From Cricetomys ansorgei (lineage: Eukaryota > Chordata > Mammalia > Rodentia > Nesomyidae), in NCBI GenBank assembly GCA_026225945.1, contig JAMJFZ010001813.1:36935-100934 (forward strand): a DNA stretch of 64,000 nucleotides, in the 5' to 3' direction. The stretch's first letter is position 1, and each line of letters starts with the position of its first letter. A model generated the notes under the pieces. The model was given only the letters and a program-made list of their open reading frames with translations, was not told the origin of the DNA and ran no database searches. The position numbers were made by a program, and so were the translations under genes. Shown in pieces: positions 3,282-64,000 of this stretch.

Positions 3282-64000
<60,719 letters not shown>

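Follow-up and report, generated by a model that had tools for sequence, protein, structure and literature searches.

A likely cassette microexon in intron 3 of RYR1 that probably corresponds to RYR2 exon 4

In the 64-kb stretch of DNA analysed here, called the window throughout, intron 3 of RYR1 holds 21 nucleotides (4935..4955, + strand; peptide ALNLDKW) that likely serve as a cassette microexon. They probably correspond to RYR2 exon 4, and their inclusion would lengthen a surface loop of N-terminal domain A. We put the probability of this reading at roughly 0.78. RYR1 is a major disease gene, involved in malignant hyperthermia and central core disease. If a conserved optional exon of this kind is real, some RyR1 channels have a longer domain A loop, variants in an "intronic" stretch of RYR1 may be coding, and all three RYR genes use splicing to control the loop that adjoins the RYR2 exon-3 deletion region. 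Public RyR1 models from other species include the exon, but it was not found in the open-licence papers searched, so that it may well have been published elsewhere; the main text of the microexon papers examined has no mention of ryr or ryanodine.

The microexon and its splice sites

RYR1 lies on the + strand of the window, where 62 exons were mapped over 3282-63459 with a protein sequence used only as a guide, the last exon being open-ended and stopping where the guide ended. The mapped exons are numbered 2-63 here. The upstream partner of the microexon is exon 3 (4724..4828, +, 105 nt, phase 0) and the downstream partner is exon 4 (5959..6033, +, 75 nt), both supported by translation and by spliced mapping, which has the two of them ending in phase 0. 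Between exon 3 and the microexon runs an intron piece of 106 nt (4829..4934, +), from the donor GAG/gtacgg to the acceptor ccacag. The microexon itself reads GCC CTC AAT TTG GAT AAG TGG; it is bordered by the acceptor cccgcccccacag directly before GCC and by the donor gtaggt directly after TGG, and it sits, in phase 0 on both sides, between exon 3 and an exon of the kind that starts with SSQ/TAQ. The spliced protein of the window (exons 2-63) is free of stops in either form, with 3141 aa when the 21 nt are left out and 3148 aa when they are retained. An earlier note on this DNA had given the coordinates, the ALNLDKW frame, the acceptor and the donor gtaggt, and had held that inclusion between two phase 0 exons would be in frame; all of this is borne out on the sequence.

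The strength of the two splice sites was ranked against the real sites of this RYR1 gene, and the verdict varies with the matrix, of which there were two: a generic one, and a second one built from the gene's own sites. The acceptor (4915..4934, +) ranks 48/62 by the generic matrix and 56/61 by the in-gene matrix, under which its score is attained by 2 of the 3929 intronic AG sites, candidate counted, so the "strong acceptor" of the earlier note stands. The donor it had also named (4956..4961, +) does exist as gtaggt and is weak: it ranks 22/61 by the generic matrix and 3/61 by the in-gene matrix, 498 of 2695 intronic GT sites attain its in-gene score (candidate counted), and by the same matrix the GT sites at 4952 and 4960 score at least as high. 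Use of these two competitors would produce exons of 17 and 25 nt, respectively, either of which breaks the frame. The pair of sites is still usable, the donor being weak yet within the range of the real ones. A strong acceptor joined to a poor donor with competitors would be the picture of a mostly skipped cassette exon. By consensus match only, the predicted branch-point A lies at 4896 (+, TTCAC), 39 nt 5' of the microexon, with an alternative at 4892 (+, CTCAT).

Short peptides can match by chance, and 11 of the 98404 open seven-residue windows, the candidate counted among them, score as high against the RyR2 peptide QVDVEKW. One could suppose that the 21 nt are a pseudo-exon that arose by chance and whose likeness to RYR2 misleads, a reading which the combination of peptide and splice sites makes hardly credible. 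There are 521 AG-21nt-GT sites on the two strands of the window (269 + 252), and the candidate is the single one that attains both its acceptor and its donor score by the generic matrix. Its peptide is also the nearest to the four reference RyR inserts, with a score of 32, against 15 for the next open AG-21-GT site and no more than that for all others in the window. Among 3000 dinucleotide-preserving shuffles of intron 3, six contain an open exon of 21 nt that attains the two scores (generic matrix), and none contains a peptide equally near QVDVEKW between AG and GT. Viral contigs had 0 matches to a degenerate pattern made from the 21 nt and their splice flanks. The protein record speaks against chance as well: identical or related inserts in other RyR1 proteins, together with RyR2 and RyR3 inserts at the same junction, argue that the exon is no chance pseudo-exon.

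Inserts at the same junction in RyR1, RyR2 and RyR3

Three protein searches were made: search A with a 171-aa query (best 120 of 540 matches listed), search B with a 2900-aa query scored on residues 55-107 (best 120 of 1615 matches listed), and search C with an 842-aa query scored on residues 41-107 (all 39 matches listed). As all three queries included the insert, and the listing of search B especially favours insert-bearing rows, the counts below should not be read as frequencies; some species contribute several isoform rows, and most rows are gene-model predictions. A RyR1-type junction (SSQGGG or SCQGGG) is found in 95 of the 279 rows among the matches listed. These comprise 67 rows with an insert ending in LD[KQ]W, 22 with none and 6 with an unrelated insert (by search, among the matches listed and in the same order: A 5+16+1, B 58+0+4, C 4+6+1). 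The class of 67 was chosen by the LD[KQ]W pattern, and its constant L, D and W are there by construction; a less circular count is that 67 of the 73 insert-bearing RyR1-type rows among the matches listed end in this way. By a hand count of names, the 67 rows among the matches listed span about 47 vertebrate species.

The species with an insert of this pattern in RyR1 include yak and naked mole rat, the two placentals that have it among the matches listed, and platypus, along with turtles, lizards, tuatara, two birds, frogs, axolotl, caecilian, many teleosts and a stingray. The peptide ALNLDKW recurs at the same RyR1 junction with all seven residues identical in yak (P0123) and in isoform models of naked mole rat (P0124-P0127), and the platypus insert, GLNLDKW, differs by one change. 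Frogs have APNLDKW or PPNLDKW, reptiles and birds GVDLDKW, and teleosts mostly AVDLDKW. The candidate shares the family pattern in its last four places (L/V, D/E, K/Q, W), and it scores 20 against QVDVEKW and 32 against AVDLDKW.

This distribution bears on the choice that the earlier note had posed between a cassette exon and a silenced relic. As a relic, the exon would be homologous to the RYR2 exon and used in other vertebrates, and it would have been silenced in placentals without having decayed so far. The weak donor leaves room for such a history, and it fits with the solved RyR1 chains among the matches listed, which are without the insert, as well as with the RyR1 rows of dog, porpoise, lemur, goat and rabbit, where there is no insert, and those of elephant, suricate, pig and wombat, where unrelated filler stands at the junction. 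However, naked mole rat and yak share all seven residues with this rodent and platypus all but one, the acceptor is among the best of the gene, and the insert is annotated in four isoform models of naked mole rat. A cassette exon fits better, given the seven-of-seven identity in yak and naked mole rat; the placental relic remains a rival, and an unlikely one.

Some of the gene models show peculiarities of their own near the junction. In the pig RyR1 model P0180 the filler is WVGL, and since the window has TGG GTA GGT at the microexon donor, this could be the last codon of the microexon read through its donor, a hint that pig DNA has retained the site. Several short insert-bearing rows of RyR1 and RyR3 (P0082, P0083, P0097, P0099, P0102) end in VRQ..., VRR... 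or VST..., tails that resemble intron read-through past the next exon and that possibly come from truncated transcripts or models.

In the RyR2 PDB chains QVDVEKW occupies residues 92-98 and is followed by KFMMK. Some RyR2 rows hold one piece without the other: P0008, P0009 and P0043 have KFMMK without QVDVEKW, and the primate rows P0182-P0185 and P0187 have QVDVEKW without KFMMK. On account of these rows, the two look like separate optional pieces of 21 + 15 nt. QVDVEKW would then be one 21-nt RYR2 exon, as such rows suggest together with the end of RYR2 exon 3 at residue 91, the position given in a review (PMC7570887); the assignment of residues to RYR2 exons 4 and 5 is drawn from the protein rows. 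The earlier note had named a 21-nt RYR2 exon 4 encoding QVDVEKW at this junction; the peptide is there in PDB chains, and a single exon of that length is what the protein rows point to. The homology it had proposed is strongly supported and now extends to the RyR1 of many vertebrates and to RyR3. The likeness to RYR2 exon 4 covers the junction, the seven residues, the K-W ending and the homologous flanks. There are differences as well: the insert is present in the solved RyR2 chains among the matches listed; the KFMMK piece lacks a counterpart, as a scan of RYR1 intron 3 for a KFMMK-like second microexon of 15 nt (and of 12 or 18 nt) gave none with usable splice sites; and splicing control has been published for RYR2, with none found for a RYR1 counterpart in the open-licence papers searched.

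The RyR3 insert is LSDLSEW in the mouse Ryr3 record B7ZMP2 (P0097) and in polar bear and squirrel rows. This insert and the fish KADHEKW share with the candidate the junction, the seven residues and the W end, but the similarity is lower, the BLOSUM score of LSDLSEW against ALNLDKW being 14. A paddlefish RyR3-like row (P0251) carries both pieces, PKGLDKW and RFIRK. The RyR2 and RyR3 rows P0006, P0008, P0251, P0256 and P0262 show a further optional piece at the junction, some five residues long (KFMMK, RFIRK, RFAKK, KLIKR). The W-ended insert is absent from the invertebrate rows of Schistosoma, Lytechinus, Tropilaelaps, Cyprideis and Elysia. Since RyR1, RyR2 and RyR3 all have a seven-residue insert at this junction, the exon is probably older than the RYR1/2/3 duplications in vertebrates.

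Optional use, regulation and the domain A loop

The solved RyR1 chains among the matches listed are without the insert. Of the 60 PDB rows among these matches, 31 are labelled RyR1, each spanning 60 chain residues against the query's 67, and the five printed PDB RyR1 alignments have a seven-residue gap at the insert. In the wrasse Labrus there is one row with the insert, preceded by one extra Q (P0082), and one without (P0113). It is very improbable that the exon is a constitutive one in this species that the reference proteins of others happen to miss. The open frame and the higher Pfam domain score obtained with the insert would agree with constitutive use; the RyR1-labelled PDB rows and the weak donor do not. 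Because the in-gene matrix rates the donor as weak and the solved RyR1 chains among the matches listed have no insert, we favour a cassette that is likely to be mostly skipped here, with the microexon included in a minority of RYR1 transcripts.

Among the possible regulators, repression by PTBP1 is the best supported from sequence, as a lead. CU-rich PTB-type words (TCTT, TTCT, CTCTCT) are predicted by word match at 4905..4920 (+), and the 60 nt before the microexon hold 5 PTB-type words, a number attained by 2 of the 61 real acceptors (mean 0.95); the word list was picked after inspection of the sequence, which makes this count a lead only. The SRRM4 motif is a UGC just 5' of the acceptor. 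A TGC does lie near the acceptor at 4920, but 23 of the 61 real acceptors also carry a UGC there. The neuronal microexons that depend on SRRM4, described in PMC7935315 as 3-27 nt long and strongly conserved, are alike in size and conservation, with a UGC here that is undistinctive. For MBNL, the 250 nt that follow the microexon contain 3 YGCY-type words, where 40 introns average 2.8, which is no enrichment; MBNL comes in as a candidate by analogy with RYR2, and it is a testable one in view of the reported MBNL dependence of Ryr2 exons 4 and 5, which were assayed among MBNL-dependent events in a CUG-repeat mouse model (PMC13232024).

The RYR2 exons have been followed in some other studies. An earlier paper on the same CUG-repeat DM1 mouse model has Ryr2 exons 4 and 5 skipped together in the heart and calls the function of this region unknown (PMC8021116). 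Inclusion of "Ryr2 exon 5 only" was up in Mbnl1-deficient and in E18 hearts (PMC4356957).

Two alternative exons of RYR1 itself, ASI and ASII, lie far downstream in the gene, outside the N-terminal domain A. They resemble the microexon in being optional RYR1 exons, and as exons 70 (ASI) and 83 (ASII) they are reported to be developmentally switched (PMC5840707).

The structural setting is known from RyR2. According to the review cited above (PMC7570887), RyR2 domain A has a dynamic helix alpha-2 (residues 95-104) on its surface, and RyR1 and RyR3 have a shorter loop at the equivalent place; deletion of RYR2 exon 3 takes out residues 57-91, and what is left of the helix then becomes a strand, largely rescuing the fold (PMC7570887). 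The position of the microexon corresponds to RyR2 residues 92-98, and by this analogy an insert-bearing RyR1 would carry the start of the RyR2 domain A loop. The family profile accepts the insert, as the Pfam PF08709 score rises from 218.7 to 230.1 bits with the seven residues. Domain A of a fish RyR1 that carries the insert (P0004) was modelled by AlphaFold from an alignment of 37 rows hand-picked from the 120 listed for the 171-aa query; the model has a mean pLDDT of 51.7 and falls below 50 in the loop, too poor for use.

Taken together, one may picture an exon that existed before the three RYR genes arose by duplication and that, through its small size, weak donor and PTB-type words, would be skipped by default in skeletal muscle. 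Inclusion would rise where PTBP1 is low, or where activators of the MBNL or SRRM type help. The insert would then supply the start of the loop that is helix alpha-2 (95-104) in RyR2, and next to the exon 3-encoded part the channel would have a loop resembling that of RyR2, which could alter partner binding or gating. A more far-reaching proposal, which we offer tentatively and think rather doubtful, is that mammalian RYR1 encodes a second, non-canonical channel, fetal or neural, whose domain A loop resembles that of RyR2, with PTBP1 and MBNL acting as the switch through this exon; the exon would have been common to the three RYR genes since before jawed vertebrates, and it would be mis-spliced in myotonic dystrophy alongside RYR2 exons 4/5.

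Other features of the window

The tRNA and Rfam scans of the 64-kb window gave nothing bearing on the microexon. There is a weak tRNA-like Rfam match on the minus strand at 29579-29649 (31 bits, E 0.017), at which ARAGORN calls no tRNA, and which is perhaps a tRNA-derived SINE. Among the mapped RYR1 exons, two appear to use GC donors: exon 32, at 41189 (AAG/gcaagg), and exon 57, at 60150 (CAG/gcacga).
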